A DNA stretch of 43,055 nucleotides. It comes from Xanthomonas bonasiae (lineage in GTDB: Bacteria; Pseudomonadota; Gammaproteobacteria; Xanthomonadales; Xanthomonadaceae). Of this stretch, positions 21,885-42,550 are shown piece by piece. The DNA is taken from positions 1-43,055 of the forward strand of contig NZ_JAFIWB010000034.1 in the NCBI RefSeq assembly GCF_017163705.1, given 5' to 3'. The translations under genes and the position numbers were made by a program. Each line of letters opens with the position of its first letter. Position 1 is the first letter of the stretch. The notes under the pieces are model-generated. The model ran no database searches, had not been told where the DNA came from, and saw only the letters and a list, made by a program, of their open reading frames with translations.

Positions 21885-24076
21885 AGCAAGGGCTCCGCGC
21901 CGGCATCGGCCGGCAGGGCCGGGGTGCCGAGGAATTGGTTGCGGGTGGCGATCAGGTGCGGCGTGCCGGTGGTGCGCACGTCGCTGATCGCGGCGCTGTC
22001 GATGAAGCGGTTGTCGTGCAGGAAGGTGCGCTGCACGCCGTGCAGGCGCAGCGACGGCGCATCGGCGCCGCCGACGCGCTCGAAGCGCGAGCGGTCGATC
22101 GTCAATACCGGGCCGAAGGTGCTCTCGTCGCGGCCGCCGCGGTACAGATCGACCGCCGGCCCGCCGATGCGGCGGAACTGCGCATCGGCGATCTCCACGC
22201 GCTCGGCGTTGTAGGTGCCGCGGTCGTCGGTTTCCGCATGCGCCGACAGCACCGCGCCGGAGACGTCTTCCACCACCACCCGGCGCAGTGCGATGCGCTC
22301 GGCCAGGGTGCCCTTGCCCAGCGCGATCACGTCGAAGCCGCGGTTGACGGTGAGGCCGTGGATGCGGCTGTCCTCGACGATCAGGTCGTAGTTGGCGGCA
22401 TTGGAACCGGGCGCGGTGCGGATCACCGCATTGCCCACTTCGTCCGGCGCGGCGCTGCCGTCGATCTGCAGTCGCGCCAGCTTCAGCGCGCCGCCGGCTT
22501 CGATCTGGAACAGGGTGGAGCGGGAGAACGCGATCTGCGCCCGGCCGCGGGCCGGGCCTTCGACGCTGAGCGGATGGCGCAGCGCCAGCACCTGATCGAC
22601 CTGGTAACGGCCGGCGTCCAGTTGCAGGCGATCGCCGGCACCGGCGGCGGCCACCGCGTGCGCCAGCGTGTCGTTGCCGGGCCGCACGCGCTGGCGGCGG
22701 CCGCTGTCCAGCGCCACCGGCACCGTTTCCTTCGCATACCAGGCCACGCCGACGTCGTCGCGCGGCACATAGGTCAACGCCGGATCGGCACCGATGCCGC
22801 CGGCATCGGCGGCGACCAGCAGGCCGGTCGCGGCGCGCGTCATGTTCAGCGTGCGGCCGGTCACCCCGCCGGGCAGGCGCGGCGAGGCCGCCGGGCTTTG
22901 CAGGTTGCCGGCGAAGGCGATGCCGGACAGGTCGCCGAGCACGCGCACCGGGTCGTGCTCGGCGACGATCAGGTTGTCGGCGAAATCGCTGTCGATCGGC
23001 GCGGCGGTGCGTTCGTCGTCCTTGCCGGCGCCGAAGAACAGCTGCTTGCCGGCGACGAAGGTGTTGTGCTCGATCAGCGCTTGCTGCACCTGCACGTAGC
23101 GGTTGGCCGGCGAATCGGGCACGCCGTACATGATGCTCAGCGCCGCCGAATAGCCATCGCCGGCCAGCCCTTCCAGGTAGTTGTTGCGCACGGTCTGCCT
23201 GCGGTTGATGACACGGATGCCGCCGGTGTCGTCCTTGCCGTCGCCGAAGAACACGTTGTTCTCGACCAGGTTGCCGTCGCCGTGGCGCAGCACCAGCGCG
23301 CCGCGCGAGCGCTTGAACACGTTGCCGCGGTAGGTGTTGCCGCCGGACTTGTTGGAGACGATCTCCACTTCGCCGTCGCAGCCTTCGAACCAGTTGTTCT
23401 CGACCAGCGAGTTGGAAGCGGAGCTGGCGTCGTTGCTGGTGCCGATGCGCAGGGTCTCGCCGCCGTTGGCGCCCAGGTTCGGGCGCGGGCCGAACCAGTT
23501 GTGGTCGATGCGGTGGCGGTTGTCCAGGCCCTGCACCGTATCGCGGACCACGACCATGGTCGGGCCGGCGTTGTTCTTGCCGACCAGCTGGTTGTGGTCG
23601 AAGCGGTTGTGGCTGTCGTACATCGCCACCCAGTTGTCCGAGCGGCTGCGCTCGGGCTGGTTGAAGCGGTCGACCACGACCCGGGTGATACGGCTGTGGC
23701 GCGCCCGCTCCTTGCTGGAGACGCGGTAGGACAGCACCGCCTCGGTCGGGCTGTAGCCGTCGCGGAACACCAGGTCGCTGACCACCAGATAGGCGCCGGC
23801 CATGCGCAGATTGGACTGGCCAGTGATGATGACCTGGCCCGGGGTCTGCGCGCTCAGGCGGATCGGTTGCGCGGCGGTGCCGGTGCCGGCGAACACGATC
23901 TGGAAGTCGCGCCACTCGCCGTTGGCCAGGATCACGTGGTCGCCGGGCTGCAGGGCGCCGGTGGCGGCGCGGTACTCGGCCGGGGTGGCGACGAGGATGT
24001 CGGCGGCATCGGCCTGGCCGGCGGCCAGGGCGAGGAACAGCAGGGCGAAGCGGTTGCGCGCGGCGTTCGATGCCAT
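21881..24076 (-). CDS. PL6 alginate lyase (chondroitinase-B-like)
   Basis: The 731-aa protein has a signal peptide ending near AGQADA and a long right-handed parallel beta-helix, visible as recurring VENNWF, VRNNYLEG and IEHNTFV rungs. The catalytic Lys243 (SNKSGGN) and Arg264 (LRHGDGN) are 21 residues apart, as in characterised PL6 enzymes. Acidic residues in GEVEI (236, 238) match the calcium site. A second beta-helix of about 250 residues follows, as in two-domain PL6 enzymes of the AlyGC type. GAGGAGG lies 6 bases before the ATG at 24076. It is the first gene of the five-gene operon and diverges from the TonB receptor gene. Preference for G, M or mixed blocks cannot be predicted from this reading. 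Confidence 0.93.
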   Translation of the reverse strand: MASNAARNRFALLFLALAAGQADAADILVATPAEYRAATGALQPGDHVILANGEWRDFQIVFAGTGTAAQPIRLSAQTPGQVIITGQSNLRMAGAYLVVSDLVFRDGYSPTEAVLSYRVSSKERARHSRITRVVVDRFNQPERSRSDNWVAMYDSHNRFDHNQLVGKNNAGPTMVVVRDTVQGLDNRHRIDHNWFGPRPNLGANGGETLRIGTSNDASSASNSLVENNWFEGCDGEVEIVSNKSGGNTYRGNVFKRSRGALVLRHGDGNLVENNVFFGDGKDDTGGIRVINRRQTVRNNYLEGLAGDGYSAALSIMYGVPDSPANRYVQVQQALIEHNTFVAGKQLFFGAGKDDERTAAPIDSDFADNLIVAEHDPVRVLGDLSGIAFAGNLQSPAASPRLPGGVTGRTLNMTRAATGLLVAADAGGIGADPALTYVPRDDVGVAWYAKETVPVALDSGRRQRVRPGNDTLAHAVAAAGAGDRLQLDAGRYQVDQVLALRHPLSVEGPARGRAQIAFSRSTLFQIEAGGALKLARLQIDGSAAPDEVGNAVIRTAPGSNAANYDLIVEDSRIHGLTVNRGFDVIALGKGTLAERIALRRVVVEDVSGAVLSAHAETDDRGTYNAERVEIADAQFRRIGGPAVDLYRGGRDESTFGPVLTIDRSRFERVGGADAPSLRLHGVQRTFLHDNRFIDSAAISDVRTTGTPHLIATRNQFLGTPALPADAGAEPLL

Positions 24077-24357
24077 GGTCTGCCTCCTCTCGATGCGTGC
24101 CGTGGCGGCGCCGCCGTGGGCCGGATGGTAGCAGAGGTCGAACGCTCGTCAACCAGATCTGCATACCAAAAATCATTTATCTGGAAAGGTAATTTGGCGC
24201 GGAATTCGTGCTGCAAGCGCACATAAAATAAGATCAATCGCACGTACCAATTGGCCTGGACGGATATTTCTACCAATTTGTTGACATTGGTCGGGGACCG
24301 GTGAAGGCTCCGCTCCCAAGTCGTAGCCCTTACGGCGTTCACTCGGGAGGAGAGACC
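24077..24357. promoter_or_regulatory. Divergent promoter region of the alginate locus with TACCAA half-sites
   Basis: The 281-bp gap between the PL6 and receptor genes is markedly A+T-rich at 24140-24290. TACCAA occurs three times in the same orientation (24164-24169, 24245-24250, 24271-24276). The second is part of the palindrome CCAATTGG (24247-24254). The third forms an inverted pair ACCAAT-8 bp-ATTGGT (24272-24291). E. coli UxuR/ExuR operators are built from TTGGT and ACCAA half-sites, so these are probable sites for the GntR regulator at 27385. Exact -35 and -10 boxes could not be chosen with confidence. Confidence 0.6.
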
Positions 24358-28514: not shown

Positions 28515-31500
28515 ATGGCGTCCCCCTGGCGTGCGTTGCGTAGACGGCTGCTTCCTTATCGGCGCGGCCTCTCCGGCGTGCGCGCGATGTTCCTGCAGCA
28601 TGGCCGCATGCGGCCGCCGACCGAGGAGCCGCTGCGCGCGCAACTGCTCAGCGCCGAACAGATGGCCGCGCACGGCGAAGCCCTGGCGCGTAGTCACCGG
28701 GTGCGCGGCGGACGCAGCCCCGAGGTGTTGCTGGCGCGGCTGAAACAGAACGAGGACGTGTTGCGCGACGCCTTGGCGATGCTCGCGGCGATGGTCCGCG
28801 ACGACATCCGCGTCACGCCGGCCGGCGAGTGGCTGCTGGACAACTTCTACCTGGTCGAAGAACAGATCCTGATCGCGCGGCGCCATCTGCCCGCCGGCTA
28901 CAGCCGCCAGCTGCCGGCGTTGGCGCAGGGCGCGTCGGCCGGGTTGCCGCGCGTCTATGCGTTGTCGATGGACGCGATCGCCCACGGCGACGGCCGTATC
29001 GATGCCGACATGGCCAGCCGCTTCATCGCCGCCTACCAGACGGTGACGCCGCTGAAGCTGGGCGAGCTGTGGGCGATTCCGATCATGCTGCGCCTGGGCC
29101 TGCTGGAAAACCTGCGCCGGGTCGCGGCGCGGGTGATGCGCGACGGCATCGACCACCGCCTGGCCAGCGACTGGGCCGACCGGCTCAATACCGCCGCCGT
29201 GCAGGACCCCAAGAGCGTGGTGCTGGTGGTCGCGGACATGGCGCGCTCGCAGCCGCCGCTGTCCGGCGCGTTCGTGGCCGAACTGGTGCGCGGGCTGCAC
29301 GGGCGCGGCGGGGTGCTGGCGATGCCGGTGACCTGGGTCGAGCAGTGGCTGGCCGACGGCGGCCAGCGCATCGACCAGATGGTGCATGCGGAGAGCCAGC
29401 AGCAGGCGGCCGACCAGGTCTCGATCAGCAACAGCATCGCCAGCCTGCGTCTGCTGGCGACGCTGGACTGGCGCGAGTTCGTCGAGGAGCTGAGCGCGGT
29501 CGAAGCGCACCTGCGCCGCGATCCGCACGGCACCTACGCGCAGATGGACTTCCAGACCCGCGACAGCTACCGGCACAGCGTCGAACTGCTGGCACGGCGC
29601 AGCGGCGCCAGCGAGGACGCGGTGGCCGAGTGCGTGCTGCAGCTGGCGCAGGCGGCGGCCGTGGACGACCGGCGCCATGTCGGCTACTACCTGGTCGACG
29701 ATGGCCAGCGCGACCTGCCGGCGGCGATCGCCGCGTTGCCGCGCGCACGTCGGCGGCCGCACGTGGCGCGGCGCACGCTGCCGCTGCCGGCGTACCTGCT
29801 GCCGATCGCGGCCATCGCCGCCTTCGGCAGCTGGACATTGCTGGCCCAGCTGCATGCGCTGGCCACCGTGCCGGTATGGCTATGGGCGACGACCGCGCTG
29901 CTGGGCGTGCTGGTGTTCAGCGAACTGGGCGTGGCGTTGGTCAACTGGGCGGCGACGCTGCTGGTGGCGCCGCGCACGCTGCCGCGGATGGACTTTTCCA
30001 AGGGCATTCCGGCGGGCGCGCGCACCCTGGTGGTGGTGCCGAGCATGCTCAGCGACGCGGCCACGATCGACGAACTGGCCGAAGCGCTGGAAGTGCGGTT
30101 CCTGGCCAATCGCGATGTGCAGCTGCATTTCGCGTTGCTGACCGATTTCCTGGACGCCGCGCAGGCGACGCTGCCCGGCGACGCGGCGCTGCTCGACCAT
30201 GCCGCGCAGCACATCGCGCGGCTCAACCAGCGCTATGCGCCGGAACGCGGCGACCGCTTCTTCCTGCTGCACCGCCCGCGCCTGTGGAGCGCCGGCGAGC
30301 GCGCCTGGATCGGCCACGAGCGCAAGCGCGGCAAGCTGGCGGCGCTGAACCGGCTGTTGCGCGGCGGCGCGGCCGATGCCGATTTCAGCGCGGCGATCGG
30401 CGCGACCGCGCTGCTGGCGCAGGTGCGCTACGTGATCACCCTGGACGCGGACACGCGGCTGCCGCGCGACGCGGCGCGCGAGTTCGTCGCGACCCTGGCG
30501 CATCCGCTGAACCGCGCGCGCATCGATCCGGCGCTGGGCCGGGTGACCCGCGGCTACGGCATCCTGCAGCCGAGCGTGGGCAGCAGCATGAGCGGCCATC
30601 GCATCACCCGCTACGCGCGCCTGTTCGGCAGCGAACCGGGCATCGACCCGTATACGCGCACCGTGTCCGACGTGTACCAGGACCTGTTCGGCGAAGGCTC
30701 GTTCGTCGGCAAGGGCATCTACGACGTGGATGCGTTCGAGCAGGCGCTCGACGGCCGCCTGCCCGACAACCGCATCCTCAGCCACGACCTGCTGGAAGGC
30801 TGCTATGCGCGTGCCGGCCTGGTCAGCGATGTACGCCTGTTCGAGGACTACCCGGCGCGCTATGCGGCCGACGTGAAGCGCCGCGCGCGCTGGATCCGCG
30901 GCGACTGGCAGCTGTTGCCGTGGCTGTTGCCGTGGGTGCCCGACGCCGCCGGCCGTTACCGGCGCAATCCGCTCTCGGCGCTGTCGCGCGGCAAGCTGCT
31001 GGACAACCTGCGCCGCAGCCTGGTGCCGATCGCCGCCACCGCGTTGCTGGCGACCGGTTGGCTGTGGCTGCCGCGGCCGGCGGCGTGGACCGCCTGGCTG
31101 CTGGGCCTGTTCGTGCTGCCGATCGTGGTGCCGGCGCTGCATGACATCGTCGCCAAGCCGGTGGACATGGCCTGGCGCATGCACCTGGGCACGCTGGGCA
31201 AGGCCTGGGCGACGCAGCTGCAGCGCGCACTGGTGGCGCTGGCGTGCCTGCCCTACGAGGCCGGCTACGCGGCGTCGGCGATCGTGCGCACGCTGTGGCG
31301 CATGCTGGTCAGCCGGCGCCGCCTGCTGCAATGGCATGCATCCGGCGACGTGGCGCGCAGCCTCGGTCGCGGCAATGCGGCGGAGCTGGGCGGGATGGCG
31401 CCGGCGGCGCTGTGCGCGCTGGCGCTGCTGGCCGTGCTGGCCTGGCGGCAGCCGCATGCGCTGTGGGTCGCCGCGCCGATCGTGGCGCTGTGGATCGTCG

Positions 31501-34500
31501 CGCCGGCCGTGATGGCGTGGATGGGTCATGCCGCCGCGCCGCGCCGCGCGCAGCTGGCGCCGCCGCAGCGCGCCTTCCTCGGCCGGCTGTCGCGCCGCAC
31601 CTGGGCGTTCTTCGAAGTGCACGTGCGCGCGCAGGACCATTGGCTGCCGCCGGACAACGTGCAGGAACATCCGCAACTGGTGGTGGCGCGGCGCACCTCG
31701 CCGACCAATATCGGCCTGGCCCTGCTCGGCAATCTGGCCGCCTACGACCTGGGCTACCTGCAGCCGGGCGGGGTGATCGAGCGCACCCGGCTGACCCTGG
31801 CGACGATGGAGACGCTGCCGCGTCATCGCGGCCATTTCTACAACTGGTACGACACCGAGACCCTGTTGCCGCTGCCGCCGGCCTATCTGTCGACGGTGGA
31901 CAGCGGCAACCTGGCCGGGCATCTGCTGACCCTGCGCCAGGGGCTGCTGGCGCTGTGCGATGCGCCACTGCTGGCCACGGCCACCTTCGACGGGCTGGCC
32001 GACACGTTCGGCGTGCTGCGCGAGGCTGCGCACGACAATCCAGCCGCAGCGGCGGTGCCGCAGGCGGTGCTGCACGACGTCGATCAGCGCCTGCAGGCGC
32101 TGTGCGCGGCCCCGCCGCAGACGCTGCCGCAGACCTGGCACGCACTGGCTGCGCTGGCCGTGCAGGCGGCCGCGATCGCCGAGCGCTGGCCGCCGCCGGC
32201 CGCCGCTACGGAGCAGTCCGCCGACGCGTTGGCGCCGCACTGGCCGCAGGTCCTGCTGGACGCGTGCAACGCGGCGCAGCAGGAACTGCACGAATTCGCG
32301 CCGTGGGCGACGGCGCCGGATCGCGACGACGCGTGCCTGCCGGTGACCGAGGCGGCGTTGCCGTCGCTGCGCGCGCTGGCCGCGCAGACCTGCAACGCCG
32401 AGGCCGCCGAGCGCGCCCGCGCGCGCATCCACCAGCTCGAGCGCCTGGCGCATATCGCCGGGCAACTGTCGCTGATGGAATACGGCTTCCTCTACGATCC
32501 GGCGCGGCGCCTGCTGGCGATCGGCTACAACGTCGACGAGCGGCGCCTGGACCAGGGCTACTACGATCTGCTGGCGTCGGAGGCGCGGCTGTGCAGCTTC
32601 GTCGCCATCGCCCAGGGCCAGCTGCCGCAGGAAAGCTGGTTCGCGCTCGGGCGCCAGCTCACCGAGGTCGACGGCGAAGCGACGCTGCTGTCGTGGAGCG
32701 GCTCGATGTTCGAATACCTGATGCCGCAGCTGGTGATGCCCAGCTATGCCGACACCTTGCTCGACCAGACCGCCGTGCATGCGGTCAACGCGCAGATCGC
32801 GCACGGCGCGCGGAACGCGGTGCCGTGGGGCGTCTCCGAATCCGGCTACAACGCGGTCGATGCGCGGATGAACTACCAGTACCGCGCGTTCGGCGTGCCC
32901 GGGCTGGGCCTCAAACGCGGGCTCGGCGACGATCTGGTGATCGCCCCATACGCCAGCATGATGGCACTGATGGTGGCCCCGGAAGCGGCCTGCGCCAACC
33001 TGCAGCGGCTTTCCGAGTCCGGTTTCGGCGGCCGTTTCGGCCTGCACGAGGCGATCGACTACACCCCCAGCCGGGTGCCGCCCGGGCAGGACCATGCGCT
33101 GATCCGTTCGTACATGGCGCATCACCAGGGCATGGGCCTGCTGGCGCTGGACCATCTGCTGCGCGAGCAGCCGATGCAGAAGCGTTTCGCCGCCGATGCC
33201 GAGTTCCAGGCCACCTTGCTGTTGCTGCAGGAACGGATCCCGCGGGTGGGCGTGTTCCATCCGCAGGAGGCCGACGGCGCCGCACGCAGCCCCCAGGACG
33301 CGCGCGAGGACGAGACCCAGCTGCGCGTGTTCCGCGATCCGAGCGCGCCGCGGCCGGCGGTGCAACTGCTCTCCAACGGCCGCTACCACGGCCTGCTGAC
33401 CAGCGCCGGCGGCGGCTACAGCCGCATGCGCGACATGGCCATCACCCGCTGGCGCGAGGACGCCACCCGCGACCATTGGGGCAGCTTCTGCTACCTGCGC
33501 GACGTGGACAGCGGCGACTACTGGTCGGCCGCCTACCAGCCCACCGCCGTGGCGGTGGACCACTACGAGGCGATCTTCTCCGATGCCAAGGCCGAGTTCC
33601 GCGGCCGCAAGCGCGGCTTCGACACGCACCTGGAAGTGGCGATCTCCGCCGAGGACGACATCGAGCTGCGCCGCCTGCGGGTCAGCAACCGTTCGCGGCA
33701 GCCGCGCACCATCGAGATCACCACCTATGCCGAAGTGGTGCTGGCGCCGGCCATCGCCGACGAACTGCACCCGGCCTTCAGCAACCTGTTCGTGCAGACC
33801 GAGATCGCCCGCGACACGCAGGCGCTGCTGTGCACGCGGCGCACCCGCGCGCACGACGAGGTGGCGCCGTGGATGTTCCATCTGGTGGCGGTACACGATG
33901 CGCACATCGGCGCGATTTCCTACGAGACCGACCGCGCGCGCTTCCTCGGCCGCGGCAATACGGCGCGCACCCCGCGCGCGCTGAGCCGGGATGCGGCGCT
34001 GTCCGACACCGCCGGTTCGGTGCTCGACCCGGTGGTCGCGATCCGCTGCCGGATCGAGCTGGCGCCGGAGCAGACCGCGATGATCGACATGGTCTACGGC
34101 GTCGGTGGCGACCGCGCCGCGTGCATGGCGCTGATCGACAAGTACCGCGACCGGCGCCTGGCCGACCGCGTGTTCGACCTGGCCTGGACCCACAGCCAGG
34201 TGGTGCGCCGCCAGATCAACGCCTCGCAGGCCGACGCGCAGCTGTACGAGCGCCTGGCCGGGCTGATGGTGTACGTGAACCCGGCGCTGCGCGCCGACAG
34301 CGAACTGCTGCTGCAGAACCGGCGCGGCCAGTCCGGGCTGTGGGGCCATGCGATCTCCGGCGACCTGCCGATCGCGCTGCTGCAGATCGGCGATGCCGAC
34401 AACATCGAACTGGTGCGGCAGATGGTGCAGGCGCATGCGTACTGGCGGCTCAAGGGCCTGCATGCGGACCTGGTGATCTGGAACGAGAGCCAGAGCGGCT

Positions 34501-37286
34501 ACCGGCAACAGCTGCAGGAACAGATCCTGGGCATGGTCGCGGCCGATCCGGACGCCAGCGTGCTGGAGCGCCCCGGCGGCATCTTCGTGCGCCCGGTGCA
34601 GAACATCTCGCAGGAGGACCGCATCCTGCTGCAGGTGGTGGCGCGGGTCATCGTCAGCGACCAGCGCGGCACGCTCGCCGCGCAGATCGGCCGGCACCTG
34701 CCGCCGCCGCGCGGCATGCCGGAACTGGTGCCGTTGCCGGCCGCCGCGCTGGCCGAGGCGCAGGAGCACGCACAGGCGCTGGCGCCGTTCGCGGCCGCCA
34801 GCGGCGACCCGCACGAGGATCCGTGGCCGTTCGCGCCGGCGCAGGGCGAGGTGCTGTTCGACAACGGCACCGGCGCCTTCGCCGCCGACGGCCGCGAATA
34901 CCTGGTGGCGCTGCGCGAGGGCGCGCCGACGCCGGCACCGTGGTCCAACGTGCTGGCCAATGCGCAGCTGGGCACGGTGCTCAGCGAAAGCGCCGCCGGC
35001 TACACCTGGTTCGAGAACGCGCACGAGTTCCGCCTGTCGCCCTGGCACAACGACCCGGTCGCCGACACCTGCGGCGAAGCGTTCTACCTGCGCGACGAAG
35101 ACAGCGGCCGGGTGTGGTCGCCGCAAGCGCTGCCGCGCCGCGGCGAGGGCGACTACCGTACCCGCCACGGCTTCGGCTACAGCGTCTACGAGCATGTGCA
35201 GGACGGCATCGCCAGCGAGCTGTGGGTGTACGTGGCGCTGCACGAAGCGGTGAAGTTCTCGGTGCTGAAGCTGCGCAACCTGTCCGGACGCAGCCGGCGC
35301 CTGTCGGCGACCGGCTATGTGGAATGGGTGCTGGGCGACCTGCGGATGAAATCGCAGATGCACGTGGTCAGCGAGCAGGACGGCACGCACGGCGCACTGC
35401 TGGCCTGCAATCCGTACAACGCCGAGTTCGCCGCGCGCACCGCGTTCTTCGACGTGGATGCGGCCGCGCGCAGTTGCACCGGCGACCGCAACGAATTCCT
35501 CGGCCGCAACGGCGACATGGCCCACCCGCAGGCGCTGCGCCGCGAACGCCTGTCCGGGCGCCTCGGCGCCGGGCTGGATCCGTGCGCGGCGATCCAGGTG
35601 CCGCTGACCCTGGCCGCCGGCGCCGAGTGCGAGACCGTGTTCCGGCTCGGGGCCGGCAAGGACCGCGATGCCGCGGTGGACCTGGCGCGGCGCATGCGCG
35701 GCCGCGACGCCGCGCACGACGCGCTGGATGCGGTGCGCATCCATTGGCGCCAGCTGCTCGGCGGGCTGCAGGTGAAGACGCCCGATCCCAGCGTGGACCT
35801 GCTGGTCAACGGCTGGCTGCCGTACCAGACCCTGGCCTGCCGCTACCTGGCGCGCAGCGGCTATTACCAGTCCGGTGGCGCGTTCGGTTTCCGCGACCAG
35901 CTGCAGGACATGATGGCGCTGGTCCACGCCACCCCGGAACTGGCGCGCGAGCACCTGATGGCCAGCGCCGCGCACCAGTTCCCGCAGGGCGACGTGCTGC
36001 ACTGGTGGCATCCGCCGCAGGACCGCGGCGTGCGCACGCGCTGTTCGGACGACTACCTGTGGCTGCCGCTGGCGGCGTGCCGCTACCTGCAGGTCACCGG
36101 CGACCGCGGCGTGCTCGACGAAGAAGTGCGCTACATCGAAGGCCGCGCCGTCGGCGCCGACGAGGAGTCGTACTACGACCTGCCGGCGCCGTCGAGCCAG
36201 CGTGCGCCGCTGTATGCGCACTGCGTGCAGGCGTTGCGCCGCGGCATGGCCCTGCTCGGCGAGCGCGGCCTGCCGCTGATCGGCACCGGCGACTGGAACG
36301 ACGGCATGAACCGGGTGGGCGAGGGCGGCAAGGGCGAGAGCGTGTGGCTGGGCTTCTTCCTGTACCACGTGCTGCAGCAGTTCGCGGCGCTGGCGCGCAG
36401 CCGCGAGGATGCGGCCTTCGCCGACGAGTGCGATGCGGCGGCGCATGCGCTGCGCGGCAATCTCGAGGCGCATGCCTGGGATGGCGGCTGGTACCGGCGC
36501 GCGTGGTTCGACGACGGCACTGCGCTGGGTTCGGCGCAAAACGCCGAATGCCGCATCGATTCGATCTCGCAGAGCTGGTCGGTGCTGTCCGGCGCGGCCG
36601 AACCGGCGCGCGCGCGGCAGGCGATGGCCGCGCTGGACCGGCATCTGGTCAAGCGCGACGCCGGCCTGATCCAGCTGCTGGAGCCGCCGTTCGACCGCAT
36701 CGAGCACGATCCCGGTTACATCCGCGGCTACGTGCCGGGCGTGCGCGAGAACGGCGGGCAGTACACGCATGCGGCGGTGTGGGCGGCGATGGCCTTCGCC
36801 CGGCTCGGCGACGGCGAACGCGCCTGGGAACTGGCGCGGATGATCAACCCGATCCAGCACAGCCTGGATGCGGCGGCCAACGAGCGCTACAAGGTCGAAC
36901 CCTACGTGCTCGCCGCCGACGTCTACGGCGTGGCGCCGCACGTGGGCCGCGGCGGCTGGACCTGGTACACCGGCTCGGCCGGGTGGATGTACCGGCTGCT
37001 GGTCGAATCGCTGCTCGGCCTGCAGCGCGAAGGCGACTGCCTGCAGCTGCGGCCATGCCTGCCGGCCGATTGGGAGCGCTGCGAACTGCAGTATCGCCAT
37101 GGCGGCAGCACGTACCACATCGAACTGCTGCAGCACGCAGCGGAGCAGGCAGGCGATGCCACCGATCCTGCCGACAGCGCCGGCCTGTTCGTGGACGGCG
37201 TGCGCCAGCGCGATGGGCGCATCGCGCTGGCCGACGACGGCAAGGCGCATCGCGTGCAATGGCGGCAGCCGCGCGCGCCGGCATGA
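28515..37286 (+). CDS. ndvB: Cyclic beta-1,2-glucan synthase (GT84-GH94)
   Basis: The 2923-aa protein has the full domain set of NdvB/ChvB/Cgs, which makes cyclic beta-1,2-glucan from UDP-glucose at the inner membrane. An N-terminal region of about 420 residues precedes membrane segments near 425-485. The GT84 domain has LDADTRLP (near 643), HDLLEG and RRARWIRGDWQ. More membrane segments lie near 836-878 and 965-1002. A glucoamylase-like domain (GVSESGYN to YMAHHQGMGLLAL, about 1437-1555) and two beta-sandwich domains follow. The GH94 phosphorylase domain (from about 2430) contains FGFRDQLQDMM and GTGDWNDGMN (general-acid Asp near 2590) and probably sets ring size. The length matches rhizobial and Brucella enzymes (about 2800-2870). 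Cyclic glucans serve osmoadaptation and plant interaction. Confidence 0.95.
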   Translation: MASPWRALRRRLLPYRRGLSGVRAMFLQHGRMRPPTEEPLRAQLLSAEQMAAHGEALARSHRVRGGRSPEVLLARLKQNEDVLRDALAMLAAMVRDDIRVTPAGEWLLDNFYLVEEQILIARRHLPAGYSRQLPALAQGASAGLPRVYALSMDAIAHGDGRIDADMASRFIAAYQTVTPLKLGELWAIPIMLRLGLLENLRRVAARVMRDGIDHRLASDWADRLNTAAVQDPKSVVLVVADMARSQPPLSGAFVAELVRGLHGRGGVLAMPVTWVEQWLADGGQRIDQMVHAESQQQAADQVSISNSIASLRLLATLDWREFVEELSAVEAHLRRDPHGTYAQMDFQTRDSYRHSVELLARRSGASEDAVAECVLQLAQAAAVDDRRHVGYYLVDDGQRDLPAAIAALPRARRRPHVARRTLPLPAYLLPIAAIAAFGSWTLLAQLHALATVPVWLWATTALLGVLVFSELGVALVNWAATLLVAPRTLPRMDFSKGIPAGARTLVVVPSMLSDAATIDELAEALEVRFLANRDVQLHFALLTDFLDAAQATLPGDAALLDHAAQHIARLNQRYAPERGDRFFLLHRPRLWSAGERAWIGHERKRGKLAALNRLLRGGAADADFSAAIGATALLAQVRYVITLDADTRLPRDAAREFVATLAHPLNRARIDPALGRVTRGYGILQPSVGSSMSGHRITRYARLFGSEPGIDPYTRTVSDVYQDLFGEGSFVGKGIYDVDAFEQALDGRLPDNRILSHDLLEGCYARAGLVSDVRLFEDYPARYAADVKRRARWIRGDWQLLPWLLPWVPDAAGRYRRNPLSALSRGKLLDNLRRSLVPIAATALLATGWLWLPRPAAWTAWLLGLFVLPIVVPALHDIVAKPVDMAWRMHLGTLGKAWATQLQRALVALACLPYEAGYAASAIVRTLWRMLVSRRRLLQWHASGDVARSLGRGNAAELGGMAPAALCALALLAVLAWRQPHALWVAAPIVALWIVAPAVMAWMGHAAAPRRAQLAPPQRAFLGRLSRRTWAFFEVHVRAQDHWLPPDNVQEHPQLVVARRTSPTNIGLALLGNLAAYDLGYLQPGGVIERTRLTLATMETLPRHRGHFYNWYDTETLLPLPPAYLSTVDSGNLAGHLLTLRQGLLALCDAPLLATATFDGLADTFGVLREAAHDNPAAAAVPQAVLHDVDQRLQALCAAPPQTLPQTWHALAALAVQAAAIAERWPPPAAATEQSADALAPHWPQVLLDACNAAQQELHEFAPWATAPDRDDACLPVTEAALPSLRALAAQTCNAEAAERARARIHQLERLAHIAGQLSLMEYGFLYDPARRLLAIGYNVDERRLDQGYYDLLASEARLCSFVAIAQGQLPQESWFALGRQLTEVDGEATLLSWSGSMFEYLMPQLVMPSYADTLLDQTAVHAVNAQIAHGARNAVPWGVSESGYNAVDARMNYQYRAFGVPGLGLKRGLGDDLVIAPYASMMALMVAPEAACANLQRLSESGFGGRFGLHEAIDYTPSRVPPGQDHALIRSYMAHHQGMGLLALDHLLREQPMQKRFAADAEFQATLLLLQERIPRVGVFHPQEADGAARSPQDAREDETQLRVFRDPSAPRPAVQLLSNGRYHGLLTSAGGGYSRMRDMAITRWREDATRDHWGSFCYLRDVDSGDYWSAAYQPTAVAVDHYEAIFSDAKAEFRGRKRGFDTHLEVAISAEDDIELRRLRVSNRSRQPRTIEITTYAEVVLAPAIADELHPAFSNLFVQTEIARDTQALLCTRRTRAHDEVAPWMFHLVAVHDAHIGAISYETDRARFLGRGNTARTPRALSRDAALSDTAGSVLDPVVAIRCRIELAPEQTAMIDMVYGVGGDRAACMALIDKYRDRRLADRVFDLAWTHSQVVRRQINASQADAQLYERLAGLMVYVNPALRADSELLLQNRRGQSGLWGHAISGDLPIALLQIGDADNIELVRQMVQAHAYWRLKGLHADLVIWNESQSGYRQQLQEQILGMVAADPDASVLERPGGIFVRPVQNISQEDRILLQVVARVIVSDQRGTLAAQIGRHLPPPRGMPELVPLPAAALAEAQEHAQALAPFAAASGDPHEDPWPFAPAQGEVLFDNGTGAFAADGREYLVALREGAPTPAPWSNVLANAQLGTVLSESAAGYTWFENAHEFRLSPWHNDPVADTCGEAFYLRDEDSGRVWSPQALPRRGEGDYRTRHGFGYSVYEHVQDGIASELWVYVALHEAVKFSVLKLRNLSGRSRRLSATGYVEWVLGDLRMKSQMHVVSEQDGTHGALLACNPYNAEFAARTAFFDVDAAARSCTGDRNEFLGRNGDMAHPQALRRERLSGRLGAGLDPCAAIQVPLTLAAGAECETVFRLGAGKDRDAAVDLARRMRGRDAAHDALDAVRIHWRQLLGGLQVKTPDPSVDLLVNGWLPYQTLACRYLARSGYYQSGGAFGFRDQLQDMMALVHATPELAREHLMASAAHQFPQGDVLHWWHPPQDRGVRTRCSDDYLWLPLAACRYLQVTGDRGVLDEEVRYIEGRAVGADEESYYDLPAPSSQRAPLYAHCVQALRRGMALLGERGLPLIGTGDWNDGMNRVGEGGKGESVWLGFFLYHVLQQFAALARSREDAAFADECDAAAHALRGNLEAHAWDGGWYRRAWFDDGTALGSAQNAECRIDSISQSWSVLSGAAEPARARQAMAALDRHLVKRDAGLIQLLEPPFDRIEHDPGYIRGYVPGVRENGGQYTHAAVWAAMAFARLGDGERAWELARMINPIQHSLDAAANERYKVEPYVLAADVYGVAPHVGRGGWTWYTGSAGWMYRLLVESLLGLQREGDCLQLRPCLPADWERCELQYRHGGSTYHIELLQHAAEQAGDATDPADSAGLFVDGVRQRDGRIALADDGKAHRVQWRQPRAPA

Positions 37287-37693: not shown

Positions 37694-38857
37694 ATGCAAG
37701 CTCTCACCTATCACGGCACCAAGGACGTGCGCGTGGAAACCGTTCCCGATCCGGTCCTGGTCGATGCCGACGACATCGTGCTGCGGGTCACCGCCACCGC
37801 GATCTGCGGCTCGGACCTGCACCTGTACCGCGGCAAGATTCCCGACCTGCACAGCGGCGACGTGCTCGGCCACGAGTTCATGGGCGTGGTCGAAGACGTG
37901 GGCCCCGGGGTGACGCGGGTGAAGAAGGGCGACCGCGTGGTGATCCCGTTCGTGATCGCCTGCGGCGAGTGCTTCCACTGCCGCCTGACCGAATACGCCG
38001 CCTGCGAGACCACCAATACCGGCAAGGGCGCCGCGCTGAACCAGAAAGGCATCCGCCCGCCGGCGGCGCTGTTCGGCTACAGCCATCTGTACGGCGGCGT
38101 CGCCGGCGGCCAGGCCGAATACGTGCGCGTGCCCAAGGCCAACGTCGGCCCGCTGGTGGTGCCGGACGCGCTGCACGACGAGCAGGTGCTGTTCCTGTCC
38201 GACATCCTGCCCACCGGCTACCAGGCTGCGCTCAATGCAGGGGTAGGGCAGGGCAGCACGGTGGCGATCTTCGGTGCCGGTCCTGTCGGGCTGATGACCG
38301 CCGCCTGCTGCCGCATGCTCGGCGCCGAGCGCATCTTCATGGTCGATCGCTATCAGTACCGGCTGGATTTCGCGCAGAAGACCTATGGCGTGATTCCGCT
38401 CAATTTCGAGGAGATCGACGATCCGGCCGACATCATCGTCGGCCAGACCGACGGCCGCGGCGTGGATGCCAGCATCGATGCGGTCGGCTTCGAGGCCAAG
38501 GGCAGCACCGTGGAAACGGTGATGGCCACGCTGAAGCTGGAAGGCAGCAGCGGCACCGCGTTGCGCCAGTGCATCGCCGCCACGCGCCGCGGCGGCACGG
38601 TCAGCGTGCCCGGCGTGTACGCCGGTTTCATCCATGGCTTCCTGTTCGGCGACGCCTTCGACAAGGGCCTGACCTTCAAGATGGGCCAGACCCACGTGCA
38701 GCGTTTCCTGCCGGAGCTGCTGGAGCATATCGGCGAAGGCCGGCTCAAGCCGAACGAGATCATCACCCATCGGATGGGCCTGGCGCAGGCCGCCGACGGC
38801 TATGCGATCTTCGACAAGAAGGAACAGGACTGCCGCAAGGTGATCCTGACGCCGTAA
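37694..38857 (+). CDS. Zinc-dependent alcohol dehydrogenase, glutathione-independent formaldehyde dehydrogenase-like
   Basis: The 387-aa medium-chain dehydrogenase has catalytic-zinc motifs [12 protein letters not shown] and LGHEFMG, and a structural-zinc set (CGECFHC plus Cys in YAACE). The Rossmann motif is [25 protein letters not shown]. The insertions and the [13 protein letters not shown] stretch match the FdhA-like branch, whose members oxidise formaldehyde or other short aldehydes and alcohols. Many members remain uncharacterised. The ATG at 37694 is chosen over an in-frame start further upstream: AAGAGGA lies about 9 bases before it and homology begins with MQALTYHG. The gene appears monocistronic, with a 186-bp gap before it and 223 bp after. 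Confidence 0.9.
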
Positions 38858-39080: not shown

Positions 39081-40061
39081 TTGACCGAACTGCTTTCCCC
39101 TGCCGCCCTGGGCGACGCCTGCGATCTGCGCAGTGCCGCCTTGCGCGTGCTCGAACGCTATCCGCAGCTGCCGCTGCCCGGCGCCGGCGACACCCTGGAC
39201 CGCTGGCGGATCCTGGCCGGGATCGCCGCGACCGACGTGTGCCTGGCCAAGGTGCTGGAGGCGCATTACGACGCGCAGGCGATCCTGGCCGAGCTGGGCG
39301 CCGCACCGCCCGCGCCTGGGCAACTGTTCGCGGTGTGGGCCGCCGAAGCGCCGGATGCGCGTCTGGCCTATCGCATTGATGCCGGGCGTGGCGAAGTGCA
39401 CGGCCGCAAGGCCTGGTGCTCCGGTGCCGGCCTGGTCGATTGCGCGCTGCTCACCGCGCACGACCAGGACCGCCAGCAACTGGCGCAGGTGCAACTGCGC
39501 CAGCCGGGCATCGCCATCGATACGCAGGCCTGGGCCGCGGTCGGCATGGCGCGCGTGGTCAGCGGGCCGGTGACGTTCGATGCGGTGCCGGCCAGCGCGA
39601 TCGGTGCGCCGGGCGAGTATCTGACGCGTCCGGGGTTCTGGCATGGTGGCGCCGGCATCGCCGCTTGCTGGTTCGGCGCGGCGGCCGCGGTGGCCGAGCG
39701 CCTGCGCGCGCATCCCAAGCTGCAGCGCGATGCGCATGCGGCGATGCACCTGGGCGCGATCGACCAGCAGCTCGGCGCGGCGCGCGCGCTGTTGCGCGAA
39801 CTGGCCGCAGAGATCGACGCGGCGCCCGAGCACGATCACCGGCACGCGGTGGTCCGCTTGCGTTCGTTCGTGGAGCGGGCGGCCAGCGACGTGCTCGATC
39901 GCGTCGGCCGCGCGCTGGGCCCGGCGCCGCTGTGCAGCGATCGCGAACACGCCATGCGCTGCGCCGACTTGGCGGTGTTCGTGCGCCAGAGCCATGCCGA
40001 ACACGATTGGGCGGCGCTGGGCCAGGCGCTGGCCGAACAGGTGCAGCCATGGCGGCTGTGA
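39081..40061 (+). CDS. Divergent acyl-CoA dehydrogenase-family protein
   Basis: The 326-aa product is shorter than typical acyl-CoA dehydrogenases (about 380). The recognisable parts are the beta-domain (VHGRKAWCSGAGLVDCALLTA, where family members bind the flavin) and the helical C-terminal domain with GGAGIAACWFGAA and VRLRSFVERAASDVLDRVGRALG. The usual catalytic Glu could not be placed by eye, so the chemistry is uncertain. A TTG at 39081 is the likely start: AGAGAG lies 6 bases upstream and the family-like sequence begins just after, whereas the earlier ATG adds 35 residues of poor composition. It is the first of four overlapping genes and probably modifies an acyl chain or amine on the same product. 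Confidence 0.8.
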   Translation: MTELLSPAALGDACDLRSAALRVLERYPQLPLPGAGDTLDRWRILAGIAATDVCLAKVLEAHYDAQAILAELGAAPPAPGQLFAVWAAEAPDARLAYRIDAGRGEVHGRKAWCSGAGLVDCALLTAHDQDRQQLAQVQLRQPGIAIDTQAWAAVGMARVVSGPVTFDAVPASAIGAPGEYLTRPGFWHGGAGIAACWFGAAAAVAERLRAHPKLQRDAHAAMHLGAIDQQLGAARALLRELAAEIDAAPEHDHRHAVVRLRSFVERAASDVLDRVGRALGPAPLCSDREHAMRCADLAVFVRQSHAEHDWAALGQALAEQVQPWRL

Positions 40062-40810
40062 GCGCGGCGCAGATCCACGGCGACGGCACGCCCGAGTCGG
40101 CGTGGCAGCGCTCGCCGTGGCTGGCGGGCTTGCCGCAGCGCCGGATCGAAGACCTGCTCGCCGGCGCACGCCGGCTGGTGGTGGTGTCGCCGCATCCGGA
40201 CGACGAAGCGCTGGGCTGCGGCGGCGCGGTCGCCTGTGCGCGGCGGCTGCGCATGCCGGTGTGCCTGATCGCGGTGACCGATGGCGAAGCCTGCTATCCG
40301 GACGATCCGTACTGGACGCCGCAGCGCCTGCGCGACGTGCGCCGCGCCGAACTGGCCGCCGCCGCGCAGTGCCTGGGCCTGGACGCCGATGCGATCTGTC
40401 ACCTGCGCATCGCCGACGGCCAGGTCGGCCAGCGCGAATTCGTGGTCGCCGAACAGATCCACGCGCACTTGCACGCCGGCGATCTGGTGCTGACGACGTG
40501 GCGCCACGACGGCCATCCCGACCACGAAGCCGCCGCGCGCGCGGTGCGGCGCGCCGTCGCCGCTTGCGATGCGCGCATGGCCGAATTCCCGGTCTGGGCC
40601 TGGCACTGGATGGACGCCGGCGCGCCGCAGCAGGCGCTGTCTGGCGCGGTCCGCTACGTGCTGGACGATGCCGACTGGCAAGCCAAGCAACAGGCGCTGC
40701 GGTGCTTCGCCTCGCAGCTGGGCACCGCGCAACCGGCGGTGCCGGCGCCGATCCTGCCGCCGCAGGTGCTGGAACGTTTCGCGCGCCGCTTCGAGGTCTT
40801 TGTCGCATGA
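40049..40810 (+). CDS. PIG-L / LmbE-family N-deacetylase
   Basis: The 253-aa protein has the metal-binding signatures of the PIG-L family: SPHPDDEALGCGG near residue 50, and HDGHPDHEAAARAVRRA near 155. Members remove N-acetyl groups from GlcNAc-containing lipids, mycothiol or bacillithiol precursors, or antibiotic intermediates, with zinc. The ATG at 40049 overlaps the end of the upstream gene by 13 bp. A GTG at 40058 (GTGA overlap) is an alternative start. There is no signal peptide, so it acts in the cytoplasm. The context with a GT2 and a methyltransferase suggests a sugar-amine intermediate. Confidence 0.9.
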   Translation: MAAVSAAQIHGDGTPESAWQRSPWLAGLPQRRIEDLLAGARRLVVVSPHPDDEALGCGGAVACARRLRMPVCLIAVTDGEACYPDDPYWTPQRLRDVRRAELAAAAQCLGLDADAICHLRIADGQVGQREFVVAEQIHAHLHAGDLVLTTWRHDGHPDHEAAARAVRRAVAACDARMAEFPVWAWHWMDAGAPQQALSGAVRYVLDDADWQAKQQALRCFASQLGTAQPAVPAPILPPQVLERFARRFEVFVA

Positions 40811-41403
40811 GCGCGGTGCAGCAGTATTTCGGCGACATCTACCGCGACGACGACCCGTTCGGCTATCGCGAACGCTGGTACGAGGCGCGCAAGCGCGCGC
40901 TGTTGCTGGCCAGCCTGCCGCGCGCACGCTTCGCGCGCGCCTGGGAATTGGGCTGCTCCAATGGCGAACTGACCGCGGCGCTGGCGCCGCGCTGCGAGGC
41001 GCTGTTGGCCACCGACCTGTCCGAGCGTGCGGCGGCCCTGGCCGCACAGCGCAATGCGGATTTTGCGCACGTGCGCGTGCAGCAGGCCGAGCATCCGCGC
41101 AGCTGGCCGCCGGGCCGTTTCGACCTGATCGTGTTCAGCGAGGTCGGCTATTACCTGCCGTTGCCGCTGCTGCAGGACTGCATCCAGCGCCTGCGCGCCT
41201 CGTTGACCGAGCAGGGCGTGCTGGTCGCCTGCCATTGGCTGCATCCGTTCGCACAGGCGTGCATGGACGGACGCGCCGTGCACGCCTGCCTGGCGCAGAC
41301 CCTGCAGTTGCCGCGCCTGCTGCATTACGAGGACGACGACGTGCTGCTTGAGGCCTGGAGCGCCACTCCATATTCGGTTGCGGCCGCGGAGCGGCTGCGG
41401 TGA
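40807..41403 (+). CDS. NodS-like SAM-dependent methyltransferase
   Basis: The 198-aa class I methyltransferase opens with YFGDIYRDDDPFGYRERWYE, the N-terminal pattern of the NodS family. The SAM-binding motif AWELGCSNGELTAAL follows, then an acidic loop after LLATDLSERA, and FDLIVFSEVGYYLP. NodS itself N-methylates the free amine of deacetylated chitooligosaccharide in Nod-factor synthesis. Here the gene starts (ATGA, 40807) inside the stop of the deacetylase gene, a matching order of action: deacetylate, then N-methylate. The actual substrate is unknown. Confidence 0.88.
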   Translation: MSAVQQYFGDIYRDDDPFGYRERWYEARKRALLLASLPRARFARAWELGCSNGELTAALAPRCEALLATDLSERAAALAAQRNADFAHVRVQQAEHPRSWPPGRFDLIVFSEVGYYLPLPLLQDCIQRLRASLTEQGVLVACHWLHPFAQACMDGRAVHACLAQTLQLPRLLHYEDDDVLLEAWSATPYSVAAAERLR

Positions 41404-42098
41404 TCGCGGTCCTGATTCCGGCACACGACGAGGAACGGCTGATCGGCGCCTGCCTGCGCTCGGTGGCGACGGCGGCGCAATGCGCCGGCCTGCGCGGCGA
41501 GGCGGTGCAGGTGTTCGTCGCCCTGGACCGTTGCAGCGACGGCACCGCCGGGATCGTCGCCGCGCACGGCGCGCAGGCCATCGTGCTGCAGTCCGGCAAT
41601 GTCGGCAGCGCGCGCGCGGCCGCCGCCGAGGCCGCGCTGGCCGCCGGCGCGCGCTGGCTGGCCTGTACCGACGCCGACTCGGTGGTGCCGGCGAACTGGC
41701 TGTCGGCGCAGCTGGACTGCGCCAGCGACGCGTTCTGCGGCATCGTCACGGTCGGCGACTGGGACGACTACGACAGCGCGATGCGCGACGCCTACCGCGC
41801 CGGCGAATGCCGCCGCGACGACCACCCGCACGTGCATGGCGCCAACCTGGGGCTCAGCGCCGACCTGTACCGGCGCTGCGGTGGCTTCCTGCCGCTGGCC
41901 GCGCACGAGGACGTGGCCCTGGTCGAGGCGATGGTGCGCGCGGATGCGCGGATCGCACGCCGCGCGCAGCCGGTGGTGGTCACCAGCGCCCGACGCGTGG
42001 CGCGCGCGCGCGGCGGCTTCAGCGATTACCTGAAGCAAATGGAGCGCAGCCTGGCCGAATCGCTGCTGCCCACGCCCGGTGGCGACGTGCTGGCTTGA
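41400..42098 (+). CDS. GT2-family glycosyltransferase
   Basis: The 232-aa protein is a family-2 glycosyltransferase: VLIPAHDEERLIGACLRSV at the N-terminus, the metal- and nucleotide-binding DADSVVP near residue 92, then HGANLGLSADLYRRCGGF and HEDVAL for the acceptor site. It has no transmembrane segments, unlike polymerising synthases such as NodC, so a single sugar transfer is more likely. The start is GTG at 41400, overlapping the methyltransferase stop (GTGA). It ends the four-gene operon, and a hairpin-rich repeat follows 12 bp later. Confidence 0.88.
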   Translation: MIAVLIPAHDEERLIGACLRSVATAAQCAGLRGEAVQVFVALDRCSDGTAGIVAAHGAQAIVLQSGNVGSARAAAAEAALAAGARWLACTDADSVVPANWLSAQLDCASDAFCGIVTVGDWDDYDSAMRDAYRAGECRRDDHPHVHGANLGLSADLYRRCGGFLPLAAHEDVALVEAMVRADARIARRAQPVVVTSARRVARARGGFSDYLKQMERSLAESLLPTPGGDVLA

Positions 42099-42109
42099 GC
42101 CGAGGTGCA

Positions 42110-42270
42110 TAGCCCCTCTCCCGTCGGGAGAGGGGTTGGGGTGAGGGTCCGGCGCGAAGCGACTCGCGGAGCTTGGGCGCACGAGGCTGCGCCCGTACTC
42201 TCATCCGCCCCTTCGGGGCACCTTCCCCCGAAAAGGGGGCCATGGTCCCGAGGGGAGAAGGGAGCAGCCT
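42110..42270. repeat. MITE-like repeat, copy 1
   Basis: The element starts TAGCCCCTCTCCC and ends in GGGAGAAGGGA, giving imperfect terminal inverted repeats. Inside are the hairpin CCCTCTCCCGTCGGGAGAGGG and a GGTGAGGGT / ACCCTCATCC-like inverted pair. Copy 1 is about 160 bp because of an extra stretch near 42223-42255 with its own small hairpin. It carries no coding capacity. Confidence 0.85.
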
Positions 42271-42411
42271 TAGCCCCTCTCCCGTCGGGAGAGGGGTTGG
42301 GGTGAGGGTACGGCGCGAAGCGACTCGCTGAGTTTGGGTACACGAGGCTTCGCCCGTACCCTCATCCGCCCCTTCGGGGCACCTTCTCCCGAGGGGAGAA
42401 GGGAGCGGCCG
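42271..42411. repeat. MITE-like repeat, copy 2
   Basis: A 141-bp copy in the same orientation, directly abutting copy 1. It is close in sequence throughout and lacks the extra stretch of copy 1. Confidence 0.85.
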
Positions 42412-42550
42412 TAGCCCCTCTCCCCCCGGGAGAGGGGTTGGGGTGAGGGTCCGGCGCGAAGCGACTCGCGGAGTTTGGGCGCACGAGGCTTCGCGCGAAC
42501 CCTCATCCGCCCCTGCGGGGCACCTTCTCCCGGTGGGAGAAGGGAACAGC
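42412..42550. repeat. MITE-like repeat, copy 3
   Basis: A copy of about 139 bp, same orientation, abutting copy 2. The first hairpin loop has changed (CCCCCCGGGAG in place of CCCGTCGGGAG) and the right-hand hairpin reads CTCCCGGTGGGAG. Confidence 0.85.

Follow-up and report, generated by a model that had tools for sequence, protein, structure and literature searches.

A conserved four-gene cassette of Xanthomonas bonasiae, its linkage to stress genes and its possible amino-sugar product

Closest described systems

The NodB-NodS-NodC system brings together N-deacetylation, NodS-type N-methylation and a family 2 glycosyltransferase (GT2), and mycothiol and bacillithiol synthesis (MshA-MshB, BshA-BshB) pairs a glycosyltransferase with a PIG-L deacetylase that exposes the amine on an N-acetylglucosamine (GlcNAc) conjugate; MshA and BshA are GT4 glycosyltransferases. 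The nitrososynthases KijD3, DnmZ and ORF36, for their part, act on amino sugars. Here we describe a cassette of four overlapping genes in a 43,055-nucleotide stretch of Xanthomonas bonasiae DNA (contig NZ_JAFIWB010000034.1; the whole stretch analysed is called the window) that shares traits with all of these systems. In other lineages its relatives lie beside genes for trehalose synthesis, catalase and DNA end-joining, and its product is probably an N-methylated amino-sugar compound serving stress survival. The first-pass annotation of this DNA had proposed a signal molecule of a plant-associated bacterium; the finding is more interesting than that, in another direction, that of a stress-linked module. 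The cassette consists of the following genes (aa, amino acids):

39081-40061, plus strand: flavoprotein-like enzyme of the acyl-CoA dehydrogenase (ACAD) fold (divergent acyl-CoA dehydrogenase or group D flavin monooxygenase-like), 326 aa, TTG start, TGA stop
40049-40810, plus strand: PIG-L/LmbE N-deacetylase, 253 aa, ATG start inside the ACAD-like gene (13-bp overlap)
40807-41403, plus strand: NodS-like S-adenosylmethionine (SAM) methyltransferase (MT), 198 aa, ATG start within ATGA (4-bp overlap with the PIG-L gene)
41400-42098, plus strand: GT2 glycosyltransferase, 232 aa, single GT-A domain, GTG start within GTGA (4-bp overlap with the MT gene)

These coordinates and the overlaps of 13, 4 and 4 bp are exactly those first annotated, and a family scan agreed that the four include neither a ligase nor a carrier gene.

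The resemblance to NodB-NodS-NodC extends to the MT, which matches the NodS family PF05401 (40.8 bits vs a cut-off of 24) and, in profile comparisons with solved structures, NodS 3OFJ (E 4.5e-30). It also matches generic methyltransferase domains, Methyltransf_12 slightly above PF05401 (44.2 bits), and reaches 55.7 bits on the NodS equivalog NF041650, far under the cut-off of 300; it is thus not NodS proper and belongs only to the wider NodS-like family. The structure 4ISC, deposited simply as 'Methyltransferase' and presumably a structural-genomics entry from P. syringae, is a member of the same family (E 6.2e-70 over 164 residues). Unlike the Nod system, the cassette has a PIG-L protein in place of a NodB-family deacetylase, a short single-domain GT2, an extra ACAD-like flavoprotein and a stress-gene context.

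The PIG-L protein (PF02585, 87.6 bits vs a cut-off of 28.2) carries the domain with PHPDDE and HxDH motifs that characterises PIG-L/LmbE zinc N-deacetylases, and residues P48, H49, D51, D52, E53, D154, H156, D158 and H159 are unchanged in 27 of 27 aligned sequences. It weakly matches the BshB1, BshB2 and MshB models and structures of the MshB/BshB type, yet its scores (57.9, 57.8 and 20.8 bits against cut-offs of 182.5, 195.25 and 224.35, respectively) set it apart from MshB and BshB proper. Also in contrast to mycothiol and bacillithiol synthesis, the cassette uses a GT2 enzyme and has a methyltransferase and a flavoprotein instead of a cysteine ligase among its four genes. The GT2 protein (PF00535, 42.5 bits vs 23.3) combines a GT-A fold with DxD and ED motifs: its TDAD, HGAN and ED residues are unchanged in 22 of 22 aligned sequences, and its predicted model (predicted local distance difference test, pLDDT, 92.6) has structural neighbours of the GT-A fold. 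No glucosyl- or mannosylglycerate synthase occurs among the 50 matches listed by VIA for this protein, which by itself proves nothing. A search of the open literature, with most subscription journals outside its scope, found neither a paper describing the four-gene set nor a published pathway with exactly these genes.

Conservation and co-divergence of the four genes

The ACAD-like protein was found in 12 of 60 genomes of the own genus and near relatives, own genome included (10 of 20 in the own genus), and, in an even sample of the phylum, in 33 of 398 genomes, again own included, and 23 of 213 genera (E <= 0.001). Besides the own genome, 22 of the same class or family have such a match, and 20 of these were taken whole (G120, a weak match, and G365 were left aside); all four genes are present in 15 of these 20, and the ACAD-like and MT genes in all of them. 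Other classes of the phylum contributed 10 genomes with a match (G083 to G327), presumably Alphaproteobacteria although only Sulfitobacter is named; in the eight loci taken, the MT is found in 8/8 and PIG-L in 6/8, and from one of them (L076) the ACAD gene was not recovered by tblastn. Another 80 named loci are the best 80 of 563 relatives, a choice that leans to near kin and includes some stretches cut by contig ends: 64 have the four genes, GT2 goes undetected in 11, PIG-L is missing in 4, and one has ACAD and PIG-L only. The nearest named ACAD homologues among the matches listed, which may omit records very close to the window, are from Xanthomonas massiliensis, Stenotrophomonas (a 67% match in Stenotrophomonas sp. 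MMGLT7) and Luteimonas. This broad conservation rules out a lineage-specific oddity.

The four genes are contiguous and on one strand in 91 of 114 ACAD-selected loci (counted without L062 and the other-class loci, and with near-duplicates such as L068 and L079, the same contig), so that the four families are kept together across genomes, as the first-pass annotation requires; 88 loci have the order of the window. Among these 88, and with start codons chosen by script so that individual values may be off, the ACAD and PIG-L genes overlap in 83 (by 13 bp in 47 and 4 bp in 35), PIG-L and MT in 70 (4 bp in 66), and MT and GT2 in 82 (4 bp in 81). The four proteins also co-diverge, with r of 0.61-0.86 over aligned segments of 23 hand-picked loci. 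An initial mirror test on the same loci, which aligned full open reading frames (ORFs) globally, had yielded r of only 0.14-0.38 for PIG-L, presumably because the full ORFs have miscalled starts; the aligned-segment values for this protein, 0.61-0.76, counter the idea that PIG-L is an unrelated passenger. Overlaps and joint divergence argue for one product. Contiguity points the same way, so the four genes, which we take to be cotranscribed, are probably one operon making one product, in support of the initial proposal. A search around the cassette found neither a sigma-70 promoter nor an intrinsic terminator, of which shuffled sequences predict few anyway.

Some loci depart from the common gene content. 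A second, more divergent PIG-L gene (∼31-38% identical to that of the window) lies 3' of the cassette in many Pseudomonas loci with a GlgX-type gene upstream (L045, L046, L098, L104, L112, L117 and similar), in several of which GT2 is undetected. In one genome of the own genus (G001, L067:8526-9508) the ACAD gene is broken into two reading frames, alongside the other three genes.

An exchange of the deacetylase

Two distant relatives of the cassette have a different deacetylase, PF01522, which we take to be the family of NodB and which is absent from the window's cassette, where the PIG-L domain stands instead. A plasmid of Sulfitobacter indolifex (L163:8393-11473) encodes a 1026-aa fusion of a GT2, a NodS-like MT and a PF01522 polysaccharide deacetylase, and its MT region matches the profile of the cassette MT (E 2.6e-30, 33% identity). 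A plasmid of Rubrobacter indicoceani (L165:7954-14247) has adjoining genes for a PF01522 deacetylase, an ACAD-like protein, a NodS-like MT, a pyridine-nucleotide oxidoreductase and a GT2. That a NodS-like MT can stand next to either of two unrelated N-deacetylases is the strongest indication that this enzyme would methylate the amine left once an N-acetyl sugar is deacetylated, an interpretation supported by these two loci and in line with the deacetylate-then-N-methylate logic suggested in the first-pass annotation. The Rubrobacter oxidoreductase might supply electrons to the ACAD-like enzyme. The same locus also encodes a 546-aa protein without a Pfam match, and the Sulfitobacter fusion is an instance of Nod-like chemistry in a marine bacterium.

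Dehydrogenase or monooxygenase

The label 'acyl-CoA dehydrogenase' is weak: only the middle domain of the ACAD-like protein is recognised, with a PF02770 match of 26.7 bits below the curated cut-off of 33.3, and the enzyme is indeed as divergent as originally described. Its AlphaFold2 model (mean pLDDT 91.8) has the three-domain ACAD fold. The best profile matches in the PDB are the group D monooxygenases DszC (E 4.5e-17), TdsC (1.2e-15) and MsuC (1.2e-12), and a Foldseek search with the model places MsuC, TdsC and DszC in the top rows and the nitrososynthases KijD3 and DnmZ within the first 21, a similarity to group D flavin monooxygenases in both sequence and fold. Group D monooxygenases and true ACADs tie in the VIA fold comparison, and the structural alignments to group D enzymes and nitrososynthases reach only 16-20% identity; neither sequence nor fold decides between dehydrogenase and monooxygenase. 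In contrast to the group D enzymes, the protein is shorter (326 aa), and a reductase-like neighbour was noticed only in Rubrobacter.

The catalytic Glu occupies one site in short- and medium-chain acyl-CoA dehydrogenases (SCAD/MCAD) and a helix-G site in isovaleryl-CoA dehydrogenase (IVD). The SCAD Glu column falls on S304 in one of two hhalign runs and is gapped in the other, and the residues found there in 32 members are S (22), P (6) and H, T, C and A (one each). No acidic residue occurs in columns 186-190, the helix-G region. Three residues past S304, position 307 is E or D in 31 of 32 members and could be a shifted catalytic base. On its sequence, the protein is a divergent flavoprotein nearest to the DszC/TdsC monooxygenases, and an O2-dependent reaction of the group D type (DszC/MsuC/nitrososynthase-like) is more likely than fatty-acyl dehydrogenation. 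This affinity to DszC and TdsC, together with a classical column devoid of Glu in 32/32 members, makes it rather improbable that the cassette produces a Nod-factor-like lipo-amino-sugar, for which the ACAD-like enzyme, as a true acyl dehydrogenase, would desaturate an acyl chain destined for attachment to the deacetylated amino sugar; besides, neither the cassette nor the neighbour clusters scanned include an acyltransferase, an acyl carrier or a ligase.

Stress-gene context across lineages

We clustered the reading frames around the cassette in 106 loci, with families not chosen beforehand. The following neighbours emerged, with genus counts that are slightly uncertain, since unnamed loci were counted by group code and a code may equal a named genus (L045, L046 and L048, group code g50, are labelled Pseudomonas by guess, and L068 is also not under its group code):

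KatE catalase: 6 genera, 11 loci
Hybrid histidine kinase: 6 genera, 10 loci
Antisense shadow of the cassette: 6 genera, 8 loci
Zn-alcohol dehydrogenase: 6 genera, 8 loci
LysR regulator: 5 genera, 7 loci
OtsA: 5 genera, 5 loci
TreY-type: 4 genera, 35 loci
SBF-like (DUF4137) transporter: 4 genera, 7 loci
OtsB: 4 genera, 4 loci
LigD: 3 genera, 23 loci
Ku: 3 genera, 20 loci
Iron permease: 3 genera, 12 loci
GlgX-type (lower in the ranking; our name for CBM48/alpha-amylase proteins adjoining TreY): 2 genera, 33 loci

At least one stress gene of our panel lies within 6 kb of the cassette in 89 of 124 loci, mostly of Pseudomonas. LigD is found 5' on the same strand in 23 of the 124, with Ku within 6 kb in 20 of these; ligD precedes the cassette with ku on the opposite side in loci such as those of P. 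putida HAI-2, P. monteilii and P. soli, and P. oryzihabitans has the order ku-ligD-cassette. Sulfitobacter shows the order GST-ACAD-PIGL-MT-GT-katE, GST being a glutathione S-transferase. Catalase, DUF421, otsA and otsB genes surround the Acinetobacter plasmid copy, and catalase and glgE lie near the Cupriavidus copy. Plasmid copies or partial copies in Pandoraea, Paraburkholderia, Deinococcus and Kitasatospora have little or no stress-gene context. Of 12 junctions inspected between a stress gene and the ACAD gene, seven are tight: the latter overlaps otsA by 4 bp on two Comamonas plasmids, and starts ∼5 bp or less from the stop of a glgX-type gene (L045, L046, L142, L148) or of ligD (L134). 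Spacing is wider in L107, L123 and L044 (ligD) and in L055 and L059 (otsA). A GlgX-type gene followed by ACAD with few bases between is seen in several Pseudomonas loci, including P. avellanae (L142).

Genomes with a catalase, OtsA, Ku or TreY gene within 10 kb of the cassette number 13 of 32 and represent 11 of 23 genera, where 0.77 genera are expected (P 2e-11), in a hand-compiled test (counts and nearness) whose families were chosen after the plasmid annotations (catalase, OtsA) and the clusters (Ku, TreY) had been seen, the clusters overlapping the tested genomes. The 32 were drawn from 44 genomes with an ACAD match, leaving out eight of the own genus (G001, G003, G006, G008, G011, G015, G017, G018), one whose genus was already sampled (G365) and three weak matches (G120, G183, G340). 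A quick ACAD tree covering 72 of the 124 loci, with several long branches, requires 13 changes of the context label, which may be gains or losses, vs a shuffled mean of 41, and at least two for the LigD context (the starred branches). Differing by lineage and changing on the tree, the context therefore suggests a module that has been joined anew to various stress operons. All or most of it is on plasmids in L158-L160, L170 and L171, and Pandoraea vervacti pPV15 is typed as conjugative; the cassette can therefore probably move between bacteria. An EcfG general-stress promoter found no support, as its motif occurred three times in nine loci vs ∼3.7 expected from base composition, one of these motifs being 225 bp upstream in L071.

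The linkage to trehalose genes could be metabolic and not just regulatory, with the module adding, deacetylating and methylating an amino sugar on trehalose or maltooligosyl-trehalose. The two Comamonas plasmids speak for this with their closely spaced run otsA-ACAD-PIGL-MT-GT2-otsB, as do the order otsB-otsA-ACAD in L055 and L059, the otsB and GH65 genes ahead of PIGL-MT-GT2-ACAD in Legionella lytica, and the 33 loci of 124, 30 under the name Pseudomonas, in which a co-oriented GlgX-type gene lies 5'. Yet in 39 of the 124 the 6-kb surroundings contain LigD or KatE without any match to OtsA, TreY, GlgX or GlgE, and the OtsA and TreY matches of the window's own genome are on other contigs, which leaves such tailoring of trehalose unlikely.

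The plant-signal proposal could point to the xanthomonad origin of the window, to the many carriers in Pseudomonas, Caballeronia and Paraburkholderia (among the best 80 of 563 relatives), and to possible exporters of the product, namely the SBF-like cluster (7 of the 106 loci) and two clusters of the major facilitator superfamily (MFS; 3 genera each). None of these transporter clusters exceeds four genera, though, and the cassette, or most of it, also occurs in Acinetobacter plasmids from human samples, in marine Sulfitobacter, and in Kitasatospora, Legionella and Cupriavidus. Because of such non-plant carriers, and of neighbours indicative of drying and of osmotic, oxidative and DNA-break stress, the proposal is unsupported and we consider it quite improbable. 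An SBF-like gene stands just before or after the cassette in L097:8537-9589, L047, L107 and L123 and is a candidate for the product transporter.

Nor do we give much credence to a catabolic or detoxifying role, in which the enzymes would strip stress-damaged or foreign amino-sugar conjugates: catalase lies nearby, GST adjoins the Sulfitobacter copy, and the PIG-L family includes conjugate amidases (Mca, a weak match), yet GT2 and NodS-like MT enzymes are usually biosynthetic and are retained in most copies, so that this direction seems very improbable. Anti-phage defence was considered and seems unlikely; PADLOC has no match for three of the four proteins, and that of the MT to mad2 (47.8 bits) was read as a shared methyltransferase domain.

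Proposed pathway and role

For a stress-response module we suggest the following route. The GT2 enzyme would attach an N-acetylated amino sugar, probably GlcNAc, to a small acceptor, the PIG-L enzyme would strip the acetyl group from this conjugate, and the MT would N-methylate the freed amine, while the ACAD-fold flavoprotein would perform an oxidation, more likely of the O2-dependent group D type. The product may be a small protectant, made alongside trehalose, catalase or end-joining repair enzymes upon drying or growth arrest. On balance, we lean towards this view of a compact, re-locatable stress-response module with the pathway and protectant role just outlined. More tentatively, and with somewhat less than even confidence, we envisage a widespread stress metabolite, an N-methylated and possibly N-hydroxylated amino-sugar conjugate, whose mobile module joins whichever stress operon is present. 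At its boldest, this would place a new class of compound, an amino-sugar protectant or a redox buffer, alongside mycothiol and bacillithiol. Carriers in Pseudomonas, Acinetobacter, Xanthomonadaceae, Burkholderiales, Sulfitobacter and some Actinobacteria are common environmental and human-associated bacteria; naming the product would add a missing piece to the stress chemistry of bacteria and reveal whether the 'acyl-CoA dehydrogenase' annotation misstates the reaction.

Freeman et al. in 2010 reportedly treated the trehalose loci of P. syringae, with an operon continuing to PSPTO_3131-3134. The treY/Z genes PSPTO3125-3130 of this species were deleted in another study (PMC8982409). In Acinetobacter baumannii, KatE is BfmR-dependent and helps long-term drying survival, BfmR is said to increase trehalose genes, and katE and otsA/otsB are lowered in a dksA mutant (PMC6181384, PMC10325922). 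In the same species a dtpC-katE operon matters for desiccation tolerance, in a report whose passages on it do not name the cassette (PMC13232832). A further study there lists LmbE, a glycosyl transferase and a SAM methyltransferase, without function, among BlsA partners in a STRING neighbourhood, which might or might not correspond to the cassette (PMC9948694).

Surroundings of the cassette in X. bonasiae

The window comes from a 5.38-Mb draft genome in 89 contigs. These features adjoin or precede the cassette:

37694-38857, plus strand: Zn-dependent alcohol dehydrogenase (PF08240/PF00107), upstream, a conserved neighbour
42074-42550, no strand: array of direct repeats of ∼141 nt with palindromic cores (CCCCTCTCCC..GGGAGAGGGG), three copies, at the end of the cassette and beyond
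28515-37286, plus strand: giant GH94-type protein, 2923 aa (PF06165, PF17167, PF10091), outside the cassette

Nine other genomes of the own genus have a match, and five loci were taken whole (L063-L067). All five have the Zn-alcohol dehydrogenase 5' on the same strand, a gene that is beside the cassette in 13 of 124 loci overall, some in other genera, and all five have a convergent katE 3', 647-974 bp past the GT2 stop. The window's contig stops 957 bp after GT2, and the katE-type gene of this genome stops 134 bp short of the end of contig C38, which fits an assembly break near the repeats; katE would then adjoin the cassette here too, and the repeat array is a possible cause of the break. Ku, like OtsA and TreY, is encoded elsewhere in this genome.

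The giant GH94-type protein, presumably an NdvB-like cyclic beta-glucan synthase, is also encoded upstream in the relatives L063, L064 and L068. A tRNA search of the window found none. Elsewhere in the window are:

1077-3593: ORF with UvrA-type DNA-binding and ABC domains
3943-6225: GH3 glycosidase
19641-24176: ORF with alginate lyase and heparinase II/III-like domains

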